Virus record (IMG/VR): IMGVR_UViG_3300009391_000002
Location: 1-24,126 of that record
DNA length: 24,126 nucleotides
Strand: one strand, 5' to 3'
From: a virus
The notes beneath the pieces are model-generated. The model was given only the letters and a program-made list of their open reading frames with translations. It did no database searches and was not told the origin of the DNA. The position numbers and the translations under genes are program-made. How positions within the stretch are numbered: position 1 is the stretch's first letter; each line of letters begins with the position of its first letter. Positions 6,112-21,322 of the stretch are shown here, piece after piece.

Positions 6112-6777
6112 ATGACAATTTCATTGTATGTCGATGAAGATAGAAGAATAAAAGTTTCGGAAATCCCAAGTGAATGTGGGACTTGTCATAAAAACGTAGC
6201 GCCCACATATCTAACGGGAACACACATATTAAGTAGCATAGGTGAAGGTACAAGCATGGAATTGGTATTTAAGTGTACAAATAAAGATTGCAAAGGTTTG
6301 ATAATTGGGTATTATACTGATAAAGACGACCCAAATGGGCATTACCATCTTAAAAAGATTGCACCTATTAGTCCAACTGATGAATTTTTTAACGATGAAA
6401 TTGCCGAGGTGTCAGAAAACTTCGTCCATATTTATAACCAAGCCTTTCACGCAGAACAAACTAATTTAGATTTAATATCTGGAATAGGTTACCGTAAGGC
6501 GCTTGAATTTCTGGTAAAAGATTACTTGATTTATCTAAATCCTGATGAAGAACAAAAAATATTAGAAAAACAACTAAATCCATGCATCAATATGTTAGAC
6601 AATCATAATATTAAAGAGATTGCTAGGCGGGCTGCATGGCTCGGAAATGATGAAGCTCATTATATGAGAAAATGGGAAGATAAAGACATAAGTGACTTGA
6701 AAAAATTGATTGAAGTAACTGTCTATTTTATTGCAATGGATGTTTCTGCGAAGAAATATTTAGAAGAGATGAAATAA
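6112..6777 (+). CDS. Zinc-ribbon plus DUF4145-like (HEPN-related) protein
   Basis: 221 residues from an ATG with AAGGTGA close upstream. The N-terminus has a zinc ribbon: C22/C25 in CGTC, then a second pair in the FKCTNKDCKG stretch. The C-terminal half has the DUF4145-like pattern GIGYRKALEFLVKDYL and ends with ARRAAWLGNDEAHYMRKW, a likely HEPN-type helix with R and H. DUF4145 domains are helical and are often linked to defence or restriction genes; no biochemical role is known for this one. It is visibly more AT-rich than its tail-gene neighbours and interrupts the normal Dit to tail-tip order, so it is probably a later insertion. The gene at 13075 has the same architecture. Confidence 0.65.
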   Translation: MTISLYVDEDRRIKVSEIPSECGTCHKNVAPTYLTGTHILSSIGEGTSMELVFKCTNKDCKGLIIGYYTDKDDPNGHYHLKKIAPISPTDEFFNDEIAEVSENFVHIYNQAFHAEQTNLDLISGIGYRKALEFLVKDYLIYLNPDEEQKILEKQLNPCINMLDNHNIKEIARRAAWLGNDEAHYMRKWEDKDISDLKKLIEVTVYFIAMDVSAKKYLEEMK

Positions 6778-11746: not shown

Positions 11747-11782
11747 GAAGGACTTCCTTCCTCTTTTGTCGAATGGTGATGA
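11747..11782 (+). promoter_or_regulatory. Recurring element, copy 2
   Basis: GAAGGACTTCCTTCCTC followed by TTTTGTCGAAT; core TGTCGAA at 11767-11773, 19 bases after AAGG. The core equals the known Spo0A box (TGTCGAA). It lies 33 bases before the ATG at 11800. Confidence 0.7.
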
Positions 11783-11799
11783 AAGGGGGAGTGGTTAGA

Positions 11800-12372
11800 A
11801 TGAGTTTTGTATCAGTAATAGCAACAGAAAAATTCATTACCGTTATGTCAGATGGGTTGGTCTATAATATGATAACGGATGAAGAAATTGAGCAAAGATA
11901 TCAGAAGTTTAGGAAAATCAGCGAAAACCAATTTATTGCTTTTGGTGGAGATCGAGGTTTAGCAGAGAAAGTAGTAGAAGATATTGGCTATCAAAACGAA
12001 GAACGGGAATTGCTACCCATAGCGGCAAGTATTCGTGAAACCTTAATAAAAGAGGTTTCTCCTCAAGTTGCAAGTTGTCAGGTAATATTGGGCGGAATAG
12101 AAAAGAACGAAATTGTCTTTTACTCATTTAATAATGATGAAAAACAGGAATTATTAATGAAGAAACCCAAGGGGATTGATGGTGAATACTCGTTTCTAGG
12201 TTCAAGAGAAAACGGACTTGACCTTGATAAAGAAATGGGTAAAATATATTCCAAGTATGGATTTAAAACACCAACAAAGGCCCTTAAGGTCCAAAAAGAA
12301 TTAAATGATGTTGTTTCAAAAGTTGATCCATCTGTAAATAGGATTACATTTAATTTGACTATAAGGAATTAA
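11800..12372 (+). CDS. Proteasome/HslV-like (Ntn-hydrolase fold) protein
   Basis: 190 residues from the ATG at 11800, chosen because AAAGGGGGAG lies 8-9 bases upstream; the in-frame 11773 start has none. The N-terminus, MSFVSVIATEKFITVMSDGL, follows the proteasome beta / HslV opening: two short strands, a turn, a strand, then (S)DG. After Met removal, Ser would occupy position 1, where HslV has its catalytic Thr, and Asp17-Gly18 would line up with HslV D17-G18. A lysine in QKFRKI (about 35) fits the catalytic Lys region, and FIAFGGDRGLAEKV fits the LAGFAG..ADA strand-helix. Whether it is an active protease or amidase is inference. No ATPase partner is nearby. It is a stand-alone cassette with an upstream element. 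Confidence 0.6.
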   Translation: MSFVSVIATEKFITVMSDGLVYNMITDEEIEQRYQKFRKISENQFIAFGGDRGLAEKVVEDIGYQNEERELLPIAASIRETLIKEVSPQVASCQVILGGIEKNEIVFYSFNNDEKQELLMKKPKGIDGEYSFLGSRENGLDLDKEMGKIYSKYGFKTPTKALKVQKELNDVVSKVDPSVNRITFNLTIRN

Positions 12373-12395
12373 ACTTCCTTGAGGGGGCTTTCTGT

Positions 12396-12430
12396 GAAGG
12401 ACTTCCCCGTCTTTTGTCGAACTGTGGTGG
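12396..12430 (+). promoter_or_regulatory. Recurring element, copy 3
   Basis: GAAGGACTTCCCCGTC followed by TTTTGTCGAAC; core TGTCGAA at 12415-12421, 18 bases after AAGG. It lies 36 bases before the TTG at 12451. There is only a 23-base gap between the previous stop and this element, and no convincing terminator in it. Confidence 0.7.
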
Positions 12431-12450
12431 GAGTAAAGGAGAGATTAATA

Positions 12451-12966
12451 TTGGAATACGTCGAAGACTACGAGTTGTTCCATATAAGAGATATTAAATA
12501 TGGAAGGATGAAAATAGGTCAAGTCTACGAGTTCGGTCATTCAATAAATGGTTTTTATGGAATTTATGACACAAGTCCAGAATTACCATTATGCGATGAT
12601 TTGAATCATTTGAAAAATGTCGCTACGTATTATTGGAAGTTCCTAAGGGAGACGGTAATAGAAGAAGTTAGACTAGACAATTTTTCAAATTATCCGTCTC
12701 GACAAACATGTTTATTTGTTACAGATGATAAACATGTAAATGATTGGATCCAGCATTTAAAATATGCAAACATTGAAATATATAAAATGAAGTTATCGGG
12801 AAAGTTGCATAAGTGCGACGCAACTCTAATAGATATTCACCCAAACAACAAGATCGTAGTGAGGGAGTTAGCAGAAAAATATTGGGGTGGGGAGATAACA
12901 CAGAATAGCAATAAGGTGGAATACTTATTTGAAGGCAAAGCCGAATTGGTTGAAATAATTAAATAA
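12451..12966 (+). CDS. DUF2441-like accessory protein
   Basis: 171 residues from a TTG with AAAGGAGAG 7-9 bases upstream. The frame runs back to 12379, but that would place the start inside the upstream element, so I reject it. Landmarks: YELFHIRDIKYGRMKIGQVY, RETVIEEVRLDNFSNYPSRQ, the short GKLHKCDATL stretch, YWGGE and a closing GKAELVEII. This order (REx..EE.R, PSR, A..YW.GE, G...V.EI) is what I associate with DUF2441-type proteins, which some authors place among ADP-ribosyltransferase-like folds. I give the family moderate and the activity low confidence. It is noticeably AT-rich, with its own element and terminator. Confidence 0.55.
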   Translation: MEYVEDYELFHIRDIKYGRMKIGQVYEFGHSINGFYGIYDTSPELPLCDDLNHLKNVATYYWKFLRETVIEEVRLDNFSNYPSRQTCLFVTDDKHVNDWIQHLKYANIEIYKMKLSGKLHKCDATLIDIHPNNKIVVRELAEKYWGGEITQNSNKVEYLFEGKAELVEIIK

Positions 12967-13021: not shown

Positions 13022-13057
13022 AAAGGAAGTACCTCCCTTTTTGTCGTATGATGATGG
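13022..13057 (+). promoter_or_regulatory. Recurring element, copy 4
   Basis: AAAGGAAGTACCTCCC followed by TTTTTGTCGTATGATG; core TGTCGTA at 13042-13048, 19 bases after AAGG, one base away from TGTCGAA. It lies 33 bases before the ATG at 13075. Confidence 0.65.
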
Positions 13058-13074
13058 TGGGAGGGGATGGAATA

Positions 13075-13737
13075 ATGGCTGATAAGGAGAAGGTCCTTAC
13101 TTGTTACCACTGTGGAAATAAAACGGTAATGCAAGAAATATCAAACTTTTTGCATACGGAAACTGAAAAGTTTTGGAATTACGGTTTCGGCTCTATTACA
13201 AATGAGTATTCAATAGATTTTCATTCCAGATGGAAATTATATTTGTGCAAAGTTTGCATTAATGTAACGTTAGAACAGACAAAGTCCAATAGCGATGTTT
13301 TTGAAAAAGAAGATATTCTTTTATATCCGTTCAAGAAGGTTGAGAGTGATTTTATTCCCAAAGGTGTTGCAGCAGCATATGAAGCAGCTTTAAAAGTAAG
13401 ACAAATAGACGGGGCCATTTGCGCAATAGCTATACGTCGTACCTTAGAAATGATTTGTATCGATAAAGGAGCAAAAGGAAATGGTTTATTTAATAAGTTA
13501 AAAAGCTTATCTGACATGGGTATATTGCCACCTATAATTGAGGAAATGACAGATGTACTAAGGGTAATTGGGAATTCTGCTGCTCACCCTGGCGATGAAG
13601 AATTTAATCAAGAATTAGTTCCTTCAATGCTCGAATTCACAGAGGTAATTCTTGATTATGTATATAATTTGCCGGACCAAATAAAACAAATCCAGGGTAG
13701 CATTGGGAAGAAAAATGAAAAGAATGACAAGAATTAA
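13075..13737 (+). CDS. Second zinc-ribbon plus DUF4145-like (HEPN-related) protein
   Basis: 220 residues from the ATG at 13075, with GGGAGGGG upstream; the frame could extend to 13048 inside the element, which I reject. A zinc ribbon opens the protein: C10/C13 in CYHCGNKT and a CKVC pair near residue 60. The C-terminal half is DUF4145-like: AAYEAALKVRQIDGAICAIA, RRTLEMICIDKGAKG, and RVIGNSAAHPGDEEF, the usual 'R..GN.AAHP' ending of the family. It has the same domain order as the gene at 6112 but a clearly different sequence. The role is unknown; HEPN-related helical domains are common in defence and toxin systems. Element upstream, two terminators downstream. Confidence 0.7.
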   Translation: MADKEKVLTCYHCGNKTVMQEISNFLHTETEKFWNYGFGSITNEYSIDFHSRWKLYLCKVCINVTLEQTKSNSDVFEKEDILLYPFKKVESDFIPKGVAAAYEAALKVRQIDGAICAIAIRRTLEMICIDKGAKGNGLFNKLKSLSDMGILPPIIEEMTDVLRVIGNSAAHPGDEEFNQELVPSMLEFTEVILDYVYNLPDQIKQIQGSIGKKNEKNDKN

Positions 13738-14364: not shown

Positions 14365-14395
14365 AATACAAAAAAATAGAGGGAGTTTGATAGAT

Positions 14396-15370
14396 ATGGT
14401 TAAAATTAAAAATCAATTAGTATCACAAAGTGTAATTAATAGGCGTTCATATGGTGGTGGAAATCCAGTTGAAAACATCGTAATTCACCAAACGGGCAAT
14501 ACAAATAAGGGCGCGAACGCACGAGTCCACGCGAAGTTGCAAAGCAATTTAAATCCGCGTCAAGCATCATGGCAAATACAAGTGGACGATAAAGAAGCAA
14601 TCCAATCATTTCCAGACTTCGTGAAATGTTGGGCAGCGGGAGATGGTTGGGGTCCAGGTAACACTAGATCAATCCATATCGAAATTTGTATCAATAGCGA
14701 TGGGGATTATAAAAAGGCGGTAGCAAACGGGGCGGCAGTGGCGAGAATTAAAATGAAGGAGCACGGTCTCGGTATCAAAGACGTCAAACAACATCGTGAT
14801 TTTGCGAAAAAGAATTGTCCTGCTCAAATTCGAGCGGGTAAAGACGGGATTACATGGGCTGACTTTTTGAGCATGGTTAGCGGGAGTGTAGTCGAACAGG
14901 CATCAAAACCTAAGCCGACACTAGCACCATCTAAACCAATTGTAAGTAAGCCATCCACAAATCAAACGACATCGATTGTGGATTATCTTAACAGCAAGAA
15001 AGTCAATTCAAGCCCTGCTAATCGCAGAAAACTAGCGATTGAATATGGCGTTAAAAATTATGATTTAACTGCTGCTAAAAATACGGAGTTGCTTAATAAA
15101 ATGCGTTCGGGTAAACCGACACCAAAACCTAAGCCAGTTGCAAAAAAGAACACAGTCACTTTACCGAAGTCCGCTAAAACATGGCGCACATATAAAACTA
15201 ACGTGCAACCTGTTAAAGCTAACAGCGATTGGTCACTCACTCCGAGTGCATTTGGTGGGATTACGTATGAGATACTGGGTAGACCTTACGCTAACGTCGT
15301 GACAGTCAATACAAGTCGTGGTAAACGTAACATCTTTGTTGGACCTGGCACGGGTGCGGTAATTAAATAA
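14396..15370 (+). CDS. Endolysin: N-acetylmuramoyl-L-alanine amidase (Amidase_2)
   Basis: 324 residues from the ATG at 14396; AGAGGGAG is ten bases upstream, while the in-frame TTG at 14387 is too close to it. Residues about 20-150 form the zinc amidase domain: H31 in VIHQTGN, H133 in KQHRDF and C141 in NCPAQIR are the expected metal ligands, with SIHIEICIN (94-96 region) in the core strand. It cuts the bond between MurNAc and L-Ala in the host wall. A proline/lysine linker leads to a repeat-type wall-binding segment (SIVDYLNSKK...NRRKLAIEYG) and then a beta-rich SH3-like C-terminus. No signal peptide, so export depends on the holin. Confidence 0.9.
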   Translation: MVKIKNQLVSQSVINRRSYGGGNPVENIVIHQTGNTNKGANARVHAKLQSNLNPRQASWQIQVDDKEAIQSFPDFVKCWAAGDGWGPGNTRSIHIEICINSDGDYKKAVANGAAVARIKMKEHGLGIKDVKQHRDFAKKNCPAQIRAGKDGITWADFLSMVSGSVVEQASKPKPTLAPSKPIVSKPSTNQTTSIVDYLNSKKVNSSPANRRKLAIEYGVKNYDLTAAKNTELLNKMRSGKPTPKPKPVAKKNTVTLPKSAKTWRTYKTNVQPVKANSDWSLTPSAFGGITYEILGRPYANVVTVNTSRGKRNIFVGPGTGAVIK

Positions 15371-15435: not shown

Positions 15436-15475
15436 AAAAGGCGGCCACTCTTAATTGAGTAAGTCGCCTTTTTTA
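15436..15475 (+). terminator. Terminator after the amidase, shared cassette type (copy A)
   Basis: AAGGCG pairs with CGCCTT, and an inner ACTC pairs with GAGT across the loop TTAATT; then TTTTTT. Nearly the same sequence recurs at 16571 and related ones at 16967, 17346 and 17706. The stretch 15371-15435 before it shows nothing else. Confidence 0.85.
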
Positions 15476-15488
15476 TTTGTCTTCAATT

Positions 15489-15520
15489 AAAAGGGAATTT
15501 AGTACTGATGTCGAATAGTA
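15489..15520 (+). promoter_or_regulatory. Recurring element, copy 5
   Basis: AAAAGGGAATTTAGTACTGA then TGTCGAATAG; core TGTCGAA at 15509-15515, 18 bases after AAGG. Here the distance to the chosen start (15574) is longer, 65 bases. An ATG overlaps the core (15508), but it lacks a ribosome site. Confidence 0.7.
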
Positions 15521-15573
15521 GGCCATATCGACTTAAGAAAAGCGATAATAAATATATCCTTAGGGGGAACATC

Positions 15574-16548
15574 ATGAAATATCGATTTATTACAATACTC
15601 CACAATATGAAGTTAGATACCATTAAAAATAGAGGAACTAGAATATTTGATAGCGCTAGAATTTCTAATGGACGTGAAGCTTTATCAGAAGTCTTTGAAA
15701 CTAGATTATTTCAGGATACGGCTGGCACACACTCGATTGATGAATTTAAGGATACTGTTTATTTTTATATAGATGGTGAATTTGAAGATATAACAACGCA
15801 GGAGGAAATGGATAAGAAAGGGGTAGAGTTCACTTTCTTATTCCTAAGGCAAGCGCAGGAATTTGCCATGGAACTATGGAAGATAAAAGATAACAACATC
15901 TATGTAAGAGATGGATTTCTACTTACGTATAACAGTGAAATTGAAGAAGGGCGTACATTTAAAGCATCTTTATCTGAAATGCCTACATACGCAACTGGTA
16001 ATGGTGGAATTTCTAATTTTTCAAACGAAGAAATAATGTTAGCAACTAATGATTTTGTTCCGCTTTCAGTGGAAGATCTTGGCGAAGATAGCGTTGGAGG
16101 GAAGTATCCAAGTTCAAGTCATTTCTTTAAAAGTAGTGGTTCCGAAAGAATAGATAGAGCAACATATTTTACAATGGCTGCAAGAAACAATTCAACGTTA
16201 CCAATGAAAATCGTATCCTACTGTACGGCATTGGAGTGCTTATTCACAAGCGGAAATTCAGGAGTTAGTCATAGAATAGCGGAGAGAGTTGCTGCTATGT
16301 TAGGCACTTCTGGAGAAGAAAAGAAAGATTTATTTAAACTTGTAAAAAAAGCGTATGGTCATCGTTCTACAATAATACACGGGTCCAGCCTTAAAGGAAA
16401 TGATGAGGGTTTAATTGATTTATCACTAGGTCTAGATGAAATATTGAGAGATTTAATTGTAGCCGAACACGAGATTTTTTCTAAGAATGATGGGGAAATA
16501 GAAGATTATTTTCTTGATTTATTATTTACTAACACATCGGCTCTTTGA
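15574..16548 (+). CDS. HEPN-like protein (Apea type)
   Basis: 324 residues from the ATG at 15574, chosen because TAGGGGGAA lies eight bases upstream. The first ~210 residues are an alpha/beta region I do not recognise. The C-terminal ~110 are helical and match the Apea-like HEPN pattern: KIVSYCTALECLFT, then SHRIAERVAAML, then AYGHRSTIIHGS. In the last, R264 and H269 form an R-x4-H motif, the catalytic signature of HEPN ribonucleases. HEPN RNases are frequent toxins and abortive infection effectors; that role here is inference. The gene is AT-rich and flanked by near-identical terminator/element units, so it looks like an exchangeable cassette. Confidence 0.65.
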   Translation: MKYRFITILHNMKLDTIKNRGTRIFDSARISNGREALSEVFETRLFQDTAGTHSIDEFKDTVYFYIDGEFEDITTQEEMDKKGVEFTFLFLRQAQEFAMELWKIKDNNIYVRDGFLLTYNSEIEEGRTFKASLSEMPTYATGNGGISNFSNEEIMLATNDFVPLSVEDLGEDSVGGKYPSSSHFFKSSGSERIDRATYFTMAARNNSTLPMKIVSYCTALECLFTSGNSGVSHRIAERVAAMLGTSGEEKKDLFKLVKKAYGHRSTIIHGSSLKGNDEGLIDLSLGLDEILRDLIVAEHEIFSKNDGEIEDYFLDLLFTNTSAL

Positions 16549-16570: not shown

Positions 16571-16610
16571 AAAAGGCGACTACTCTTAATTGAGTAAGTC
16601 GCCTTTTTTA
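16571..16610 (+). terminator. Terminator after the HEPN-like gene, shared type (copy B)
   Basis: AAAAGGCGACT pairs with AGTCGCCTTTT, then ACTC with GAGT across TTAATT, one bulged A; then T's. From the right arm through the following element it is nearly identical to 15436-15516. Confidence 0.88.
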
Positions 16611-16623
16611 TTTGCCCAATTAT

Positions 16624-16655
16624 AAAAGGGGATTTAGTCCTTGTGTCGAATCTTG
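16624..16655 (+). promoter_or_regulatory. Recurring element, copy 6
   Basis: AAAAGGGGATTTAGTCCTTG then TGTCGAATC; core TGTCGAA at 16644-16650, 18 bases after AAGG and 32 before the TTG at 16676. Confidence 0.7.
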
Positions 16656-17479: not shown

Positions 17480-17512
17480 AAAGGGTAATTGGAACTAACG
17501 TCGAACTAGGTA
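17480..17512 (+). promoter_or_regulatory. Recurring element, copy 7
   Basis: AAAGGGTAATTGGAACTAA then CGTCGAACTAGG; core CGTCGAA at 17499-17505, 18 bases after AAGG, one mismatch to TGTCGAA. It lies 29 bases before the GTG at 17528. Confidence 0.6.
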
Positions 17513-20043: not shown

Positions 20044-20066
20044 GTCTCCCAAAGTGTCCCCCAATT
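20044..20066 (+). other. Tandem integrase arm-type sites, right pair
   Basis: GTCTCCCAAAGT followed by GTCCCCCAATT, in the same orientation as 19838-19859. The second site touches the integrase stop codon. Confidence 0.6.
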
Positions 20067-21256
20067 CAACTCCCAGAAGCGACATTTTTCAAGCTTTCGC
20101 TGAAGGCGCTGACGGATTCTATCTTCATATCCTCCATCAAATGACCATAGACTTTGTGGATCATCTCAGGTGTGTTGCCTAATCGGTGGGCCACTTCATT
20201 AACAGGCCGCTTGGTAATCAATATTGTTGCATGGGTATGTCTTAATCCGTGAACGGTTATTTTTTTGACTCTCGACTCTTCTATGACCTTATTAAAAAAG
20301 TAAGAAAAGTTTTCCGAAGAAGGGGAGCCGGTTCTAAAATTAATAAATATATAATCATCGTCCCTCAAATGCTCGCCTAAAGATAATTTTAACCGCTTGC
20401 ACCAAGTGCGGTATACCTTAAGTTGCCTTACGAGCACCACATCAATCGGGATCGTTCGATAGCTTCTGAGTGTTTTCGGGGCTCTGGTGCCTTTCCAGTC
20501 ACGCGTACGGTCCACTGTCAAAGTGCATGCCTCAAAGTCTACGTCACTCCATCTCAAGCCTAATGATTCACCTTTACGCAGTCCTGTGTAAGCCAGCAGA
20601 AAGAATACGGTGTAATTAGTTATGTTCGCTATCCTTTTGGCGGTTTCAAGAAAGTGATTAAGTCCAACTGGGGTAAGATAATTATCTTTTCTTGGTTCCA
20701 TTTTAATGGTGATTTTGTTAAACCGATTCTTATCGATGATTTCATCCTCTACAGCTGCGTTAACGGCGATTTTGAATATTTGGTGGTATAAAGCGACGGA
20801 ACTAGGAGCGAAATCTTTTAATAAAACATTAATATACTTTCTCCGATACGTCGATATGTTTAATTCGGATAGCTTGTACTTTCCTAGTAGTGGTTTTATC
20901 TTGCTCCTAACCTCGCCCTCGTACTGTTCTGCCGTCCTTATACCCCATTCGACCCTGTAGGACTCAATCCAAATATCAAGCCACTCAGCGACCGTTAGAT
21001 TGGAATTGTCGATTCTTGAAGTATTACCGTTGATTAAGCCAGTTTTTACTTTTAACAACTCTCTAATCGCGATATTTTCTGATGCTAGCCCTTGTTTTGG
21101 CTTTTCTTGTCGTTTTCCTAAAGCGTCGTAATATCGGTGCCTAAAACCCCACAACTTTACTCCTTTGGCATTGACGTACCAAAACACATCGGGTTCATTC
21201 TTTAAATAACTCTTCTTAGGCCTCTTACCTGGTTTTTGTTTTATTTTTGTTGTCAT
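20066..21256 (-). CDS. int: Phage integrase, tyrosine recombinase
   Basis: 396 residues from the ATG at 21256, with AAAAGGGAGAT upstream. The frame extends to a TTG at 21301, whose only good site (AAGGAGGTGATG) is about 12 bases away, so a longer form is possible. Residues about 1-60 resemble the arm-binding domain (FWYVNAKGVKLWGFRHRYYD), about 85-185 the SAM-like core-binding domain, and about 190-390 the catalytic domain. Catalytic residues: R227 (TGLRKGE), H336 and R339 (HGLRHTH), and Y370 as the nucleophile (HKVYGHL). The usual second histidine of LGH is N361 (LGNTP), a variation seen in some phage integrases. It joins and excises phage DNA at att; its gene abuts the likely attP. Confidence 0.92.
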   Translation of the reverse strand: MTTKIKQKPGKRPKKSYLKNEPDVFWYVNAKGVKLWGFRHRYYDALGKRQEKPKQGLASENIAIRELLKVKTGLINGNTSRIDNSNLTVAEWLDIWIESYRVEWGIRTAEQYEGEVRSKIKPLLGKYKLSELNISTYRRKYINVLLKDFAPSSVALYHQIFKIAVNAAVEDEIIDKNRFNKITIKMEPRKDNYLTPVGLNHFLETAKRIANITNYTVFFLLAYTGLRKGESLGLRWSDVDFEACTLTVDRTRDWKGTRAPKTLRSYRTIPIDVVLVRQLKVYRTWCKRLKLSLGEHLRDDDYIFINFRTGSPSSENFSYFFNKVIEESRVKKITVHGLRHTHATILITKRPVNEVAHRLGNTPEMIHKVYGHLMEDMKIESVSAFSESLKNVASGS

Positions 21257-21288
21257 TTTTATCTCCCTTTTCTGCGTTGACAGGCGCA

Positions 21289-21300
21289 CACTGGGGGACA
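21289..21300 (-). promoter_or_regulatory. Arm-type site in the integrase leader
   Basis: On the - strand this reads TGTCCCCCAGTG, matching the arm-type pairs near 19850 and 20060. Lying just before the integrase start, it could let the integrase repress its own gene. Confidence 0.5.
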
Positions 21301-21322
21301 AAGACTTACATCACCTCCTTAG

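Follow-up and report, generated by a model that had tools for sequence, protein, structure and literature searches.

The locus and its start codon

A lone gene between the tail and lysis genes of a phage genome encodes a small protein that resembles a single proteasome subunit. The gene lies at 11800-12372 on the plus strand of an IMG/VR virus record of 24,126 bases, the whole of which was analysed and is referred to here as the window. An earlier note had described the product as a proteasome/HslV-like protein with Ser in place of the catalytic Thr. The window looks like a fragment of a temperate phage, given the tail genes to the left of the proteasome-like gene, an N-acetylmuramoyl-L-alanine amidase at 14387-15370 and, at 20066-21301 on the minus strand, a frame that looks like an integrase in the list of open reading frames.

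The reading frame encodes 190 residues followed by TAA, and the product begins with MSFVSVIATEKFITVMSDG (M-S-F-V-S), with no propeptide beyond the start Met. The Shine-Dalgarno-like stretch AAAGGGGGAG, read in the sequence at about 11781-11790 on the plus strand, is located some ten bases 5' of the ATG at 11800, whereas inspection of the alternative in-frame ATG at 11773 revealed no comparable ribosome site. Homology to the relatives described below begins exactly at M-S in 12/12 lineages, and every relative, including a GTG-started paralogue, has an M-S-[F/L] start directly behind its own ribosome site. The placement of the ribosome site and the M-S start common to the relatives together put Ser immediately after the start Met, in keeping with the earlier assignment of the start to 11800 and of Ser to the first position of the mature protein. 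Methionine aminopeptidase readily removes a start Met that is followed by Ser.

Conservation of the putative active site

Protein and alignment searches retrieved relatives from Bacillus phage SDFMU_Pfc (host Lysinibacillus fusiformis), Lacticaseibacillus phages, Enterococcus faecalis plasmids and many IMG/VR contigs. The 21 sequences formed 12 clusters (lineages) at 70% identity, and the cluster representatives have a mean pairwise identity of 27% and a minimum of 17%. One Enterococcus copy (L003) was excluded from the main alignment, as it comes from a plasmid record and its C-terminal frame departs from that of L008. No relatives emerged when 85,000 genomes were scanned twice by motif; with no more than two short motifs per scan, followed by tblastn filtering, this does not show that relatives are absent.

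Invariance across the 12 lineages is confined to seven positions, M1, S2, D18, G19, K36, G50 and G99. S2 (codon 11803-11805, plus strand), residue 1 of the mature protein, is the predicted nucleophile, and D18 and G19 (11851-11856, plus strand) are Asp17-Gly18 in mature numbering. The catalytic-type Lys is K36 (11905-11907, plus strand; residue 35 of the mature protein), which resides within YQKFRKI, is equivalent to Lys33 and is profile-aligned to the Lys of 20S beta motifs, while the oxyanion-type Gly, equivalent to Gly47, is G50 (11947-11949, plus strand) within FIAFGG. The Ser at the nucleophile position, the placement of Asp17-Gly18, the KFRKI Lys and the FIAFGG strand had all been picked out in the earlier note, and the Ser, Asp-Gly and Lys, together with G50 in the FIAFGG stretch, are invariant in 12/12 lineages. 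By simple counting, the chance that the four positions S2, D18, K36 and G50 would all be invariant is about 7e-7, and at the level of sequence the conservation of the predicted active site is far beyond chance. The nucleophile and Asp are separated by 16 positions and Lys and Gly by 14, and the same spacings are found in 20S beta subunits, as in the beta5 sequence.

For five pairwise comparisons among the relatives, the dN/dS ratio was approximately 0.23-0.32, indicating purifying selection on the gene in these relatives; the pair formed by the window and L005 is synonymously saturated and gives no ratio. These data bear on the idea, also put forward previously, that the protein is an inactive relative, i.e. 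a catalytically dead structural protein comparable to the alpha subunits of the proteasome. Variation at the supporting residue of the Ser129 type, which is not strictly conserved among members, would be consistent with such a role, as would the lower efficiency of Ser compared with Thr as the proteasome nucleophile (PMC5777263). At D176, the residue of the Asp166 type, one member has Asn. Against a dead protein stand the strict invariance of Ser, Asp, Lys and Gly over 12 lineages, a Ser that is not covered by any N-terminal extension and the purifying selection in relatives, and we consider this explanation very improbable. The enzyme predicted from the intact, conserved site is probably active.

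Proteasome-like fold and sequence relationships

Searches of Pfam, NCBIfam and the PDB with the window protein alone gave chance matches only, and relatives were therefore gathered before the profile work. The window protein itself remains below Pfam Proteasome, and the link to this family runs via the relatives and the predicted structure. Pfam Proteasome (PF00227) was matched by 11 of the 17 members (best 2.6e-6), with the curated cut-off exceeded in three carrier records, and the NCBIfam archaeal proteasome beta model (TIGR03634) by eight of the 17 (best 8.7e-5). The HslV model (TIGR03692) was matched by five of the 17 (best 1.6e-3), the window member not being among them. When the family profile was searched against the PDB, 42 matches were obtained, nearly all of them 20S subunits aligned in the expected register, with E-values that are marginal when taken singly (best 0.003).

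AlphaFold2 modelling on the 17-row alignment gave a pLDDT of 92.6 and a pTM of 0.89, and a model from the single sequence (pLDDT 48) was left uninterpreted. The secondary structure elements of the modelled chain are arranged as in the proteasome core: a first group of strands leads into a pair of helices, a second group into another pair, and a single strand closes the chain. Both the model and Foldseek point to an Ntn alpha-beta-beta-alpha core with both helix pairs present. The best Foldseek match was a 20S beta subunit (6.9e-10, probability 1.0), with an HslV (4hnz_A) ranking 35th among the 777 matches obtained in the PDB (E<=0.001). The proposal of a phage gene with the proteasome/HslV-type Ntn fold has thus held up both in the fold comparison, where an Ntn sandwich is predicted, and in the conservation analysis, where the N-terminal Ser and Asp17 are retained. 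Judged by homologous sequences and by the model, the gene product is a Ser-type proteasome-like Ntn protein. The compound label 'proteasome/HslV-like' is more apt in its first part: HslV is not the closest match (1.6e-3 vs 8.7e-5 for archaeal beta), the family as aligned is nearer to 20S beta than to HslV, and we prefer 'proteasome-like' because of the stronger profile matches to 20S and archaeal beta subunits.

The same fold is present elsewhere among viruses. In total, 23 viral models match at E<=0.001, some of them already named proteasome beta or HslV, and PHROG 1040 bears the name 'peptidase HslV family'. All 17 members matched PHROG 36497 and PHROG 13232, existing phage families listed as being of unknown function, to which a fold and the likely position of an active site can now be assigned. 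A PADLOC search gave no match for the proteasome-like protein.

A lone accessory gene with no partner ATPase in the carrier records

The position between tail and lysis genes is shared by the copies in L005 and L007, and copies upstream of HNH/terminase genes are found in L006, L008, L012, L018, L032, L035, L037, L038, L040 and SDFMU_Pfc, in several cases directly following a late regulator or an integrase-like gene. In the window, the next gene downstream (12379-12966) encodes a DUF2441 protein (Pfam 1.9e-13) and has the same leader element as the proteasome-like gene (see below). Two frames encode DUF4145, which we take to be HEPN-type: one among the tail genes (6112-6777; weak match, 0.0014), the other next to the lysis genes (13048-13737; 3.8e-18), the latter also matching PADLOC PD-T7-4 at 1.6e-13. 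With these DUF4145 and DUF2441 neighbours the proteasome-like gene stands among accessory genes, and the majority of its relatives occur singly, as accessory genes of Bacillota phages or prophages. One contig (IMGVR_UViG_2822514071_000001; L018/L065) holds two divergent proteasome-like genes, at about 16168 and 40841, the second copy having a GTG start and lying behind a lysis gene. The member on E. faecalis plasmids (L048, 8001-8612) is located near IS elements and prgP, with no obvious phage around it.

An AAA domain of the HslU/ClpX type (AAA_2, PF07724) was absent from the 15 carrier records, several of which may be fragments, and present in 14/14 control genomes, in agreement with the earlier description of a stand-alone protein with no unfoldase of its own. 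Matches to AAA (PF00004) in some carrier records were not counted as partners, as they fall in frames of 235-303 residues away from the gene; these frames are probably DnaC-type helicase loaders.

A protein with no phage ATPase of its own in the records searched might instead act on the HslVU system of the host (ClpQY/CodWX), mixing into or capping HslV rings or borrowing HslU, and thereby block or redirect host proteolysis. The phage protein shares with HslV/ClpQ the fold, Asp17-Gly18, the Lys region and a weak profile similarity, and its nucleophile has a counterpart in CodW of B. subtilis, an HslV with an N-terminal Ser (PMC5777263). However, its sequence is nearer to 20S beta than to HslV, the gene lies outside any hslVU operon with no HslU nearby, and a mere decoy would not need the catalytic set that is conserved here. 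We therefore regard an action on host HslVU as quite unlikely.

Comparison with stand-alone proteasome homologues

The 20S beta subunits (PF00227, TIGR03634) provide the best profile and structure matches, and have in common with the phage protein the Ntn sandwich and the equivalents of the nucleophile at position 1, Asp17, Lys33 and Gly47. The differences are considerable, as the phage protein has Ser for Thr, no propeptide, a length of 190 residues, no AAA+ partner and a phage-borne gene, and the identity in the structural alignment is about 15%.

The closest precedent that has been worked out is BPH (bacterial proteasome homologue). In BPH, the Met is removed, Ser1 is found in many members together with Asp17, Lys37 and Gly50, and a double ring is formed with no ATPase (PMC5777263). 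The phage protein is similar in having no AAA+ partner, in a residue 1 that would be exposed by removal of Met, in Ser1 and in the layout of Asp17, Lys and Gly50. It differs from BPH in being encoded by a phage accessory gene and in the loop following the first helix, which is short in the model but forms a long acidic pore loop in BPH. BPH chains were not among the PDB matches of the family profile. BPH is labelled by epoxomicin, yet inactive on standard substrates (PMC5777263), and an intact site need therefore not mean general protease activity.

Fuchs, Alva and Lupas (2021) reported 22 new proteasome homologues, including the phage-borne PPH and AAH as well as five firmicute clusters, with no AAA+ partners (PMC8665760). 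Similar to the protein studied here, PPH and AAH are phage-encoded, stand-alone and proteasome-like. PPH has about 140 residues and is missing the second helix, H2 (PMC8665760), in contrast to the 190 residues and, in the model, both helix pairs of the phage protein. The firmicute clusters FC1-FC5, Bacillota proteasome-like proteins of group II, are perhaps the nearest published clusters, and were reported without phages (PMC8665760, Table 1); the phage family may belong to one of them. Phage proteasome homologues (PPH, AAH; PMC8665760) are thus already published, and the gene is real but not unprecedented. Considering these homologues, PHROG 1040 and the 23 viral models, calling a stand-alone phage peptidase of this type unusual was an overstatement. 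The present analysis adds the strictness of Ser1 and the recurrence of the gene among the accessory genes of Bacillota phages.

Connectase, one of the proteasome-like proteins, is a ligase, and Ntn enzymes as a group accept many different amides (PMC8665760). The phage protein could accordingly be a highly specific transferase or ligase, or a small-molecule amidase, rather than a protease, and an accessory gene without an unfoldase would suit a specific substrate. Connectase is characterized by a two-helix insertion between S3 and S4 and by the loss of the first helix pair (PMC8665760). This signature is absent from the model of the phage protein, in which the helices at 52-62 and 71-85 are not preceded by any helical insertion, and there is no positive evidence for a substrate of this kind; we judge the ligase or amidase alternative unlikely.

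A model of function

The interpretation that we consider probable is that of a phage accessory gene (moron) encoding a compact stand-alone Ser-type proteasome-like Ntn hydrolase. It builds on the computed fold, the invariant Ser1, Asp17, Lys and Gly, the lack of a propeptide and the purifying selection in relatives, and on the records searched having no phage-encoded partner of the HslU/ClpX type. In this model, the methionine aminopeptidase of the host would remove Met and free Ser1. Aided by Lys and Asp, the amino group of Ser1 would activate the hydroxyl of the same residue, which would then attack an amide. The subunits would probably assemble into a small homo-oligomer, the modelled structure being compatible with a ring and having no clashing insertions. 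As has been proposed for BPH, the enzyme may then work independently of ATP, cutting or modifying a restricted group of proteins from the host or the phage, and would likely benefit the lysogen or prophage rather than serve in building the virion. A more far-reaching version, tentative and on balance doubtful, is that the family is an undescribed subfamily centred on Bacillota phages with an obligatory Ser nucleophile, expressed in the lysogen as an unfoldase-free processing protease or protein ligase that targets a specific protein of the host or of a competing phage.

Very few functions are known for proteasome-like proteins outside the proteasome and HslV, and no study addressing the function of a phage-borne one turned up in the literature searches. 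The phage family is compact, its Ser1 is fixed and it has no ATPase, which makes it a simple system in which to study the role of stand-alone Ntn proteins.

A promoter-like leader element

The gene is preceded by a leader or promoter-like element, GAAGGACTT-N12-GTCGAATGG (11747-11776, plus strand), similar copies of which precede other accessory genes. The element resembles the sigma-H consensus of B. subtilis, and from its letters may be a sigma-H-like promoter, in which case the proteasome-like gene would have a promoter of its own for expression in the lysogen. The succession of AAGG, spacer, GTCGAA, ribosome site and start is found at five plus-strand places compared to 0.02 expected per strand under a Markov model, a figure that is indicative only because the pattern was chosen after the copies had been seen. 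A first loose scan for sigma-H sites gave counts close to the Markov background. The element is absent before the proteasome-like copies of L005 and L018, and the promoter reading is therefore limited to the window.

Just 5' of ribosome sites, the leader element (AAGGA..TT..CTTTTGTCGAA) is found in the window at 11747-11776, 12396-12422, 13022-13048, 16626-16652 and 17480-17505, and further copies are present in L005 (8089) and L067 (1107 and 1759). In the phage contig L067, the element precedes an accessory gene at the same spot. Two 81-base copies in the window (15436-15516 and 16571-16651), 84% alike and comprising a terminator-like hairpin and the leader, flank the frame at 15508-16548 and look like a duplicated cassette boundary.
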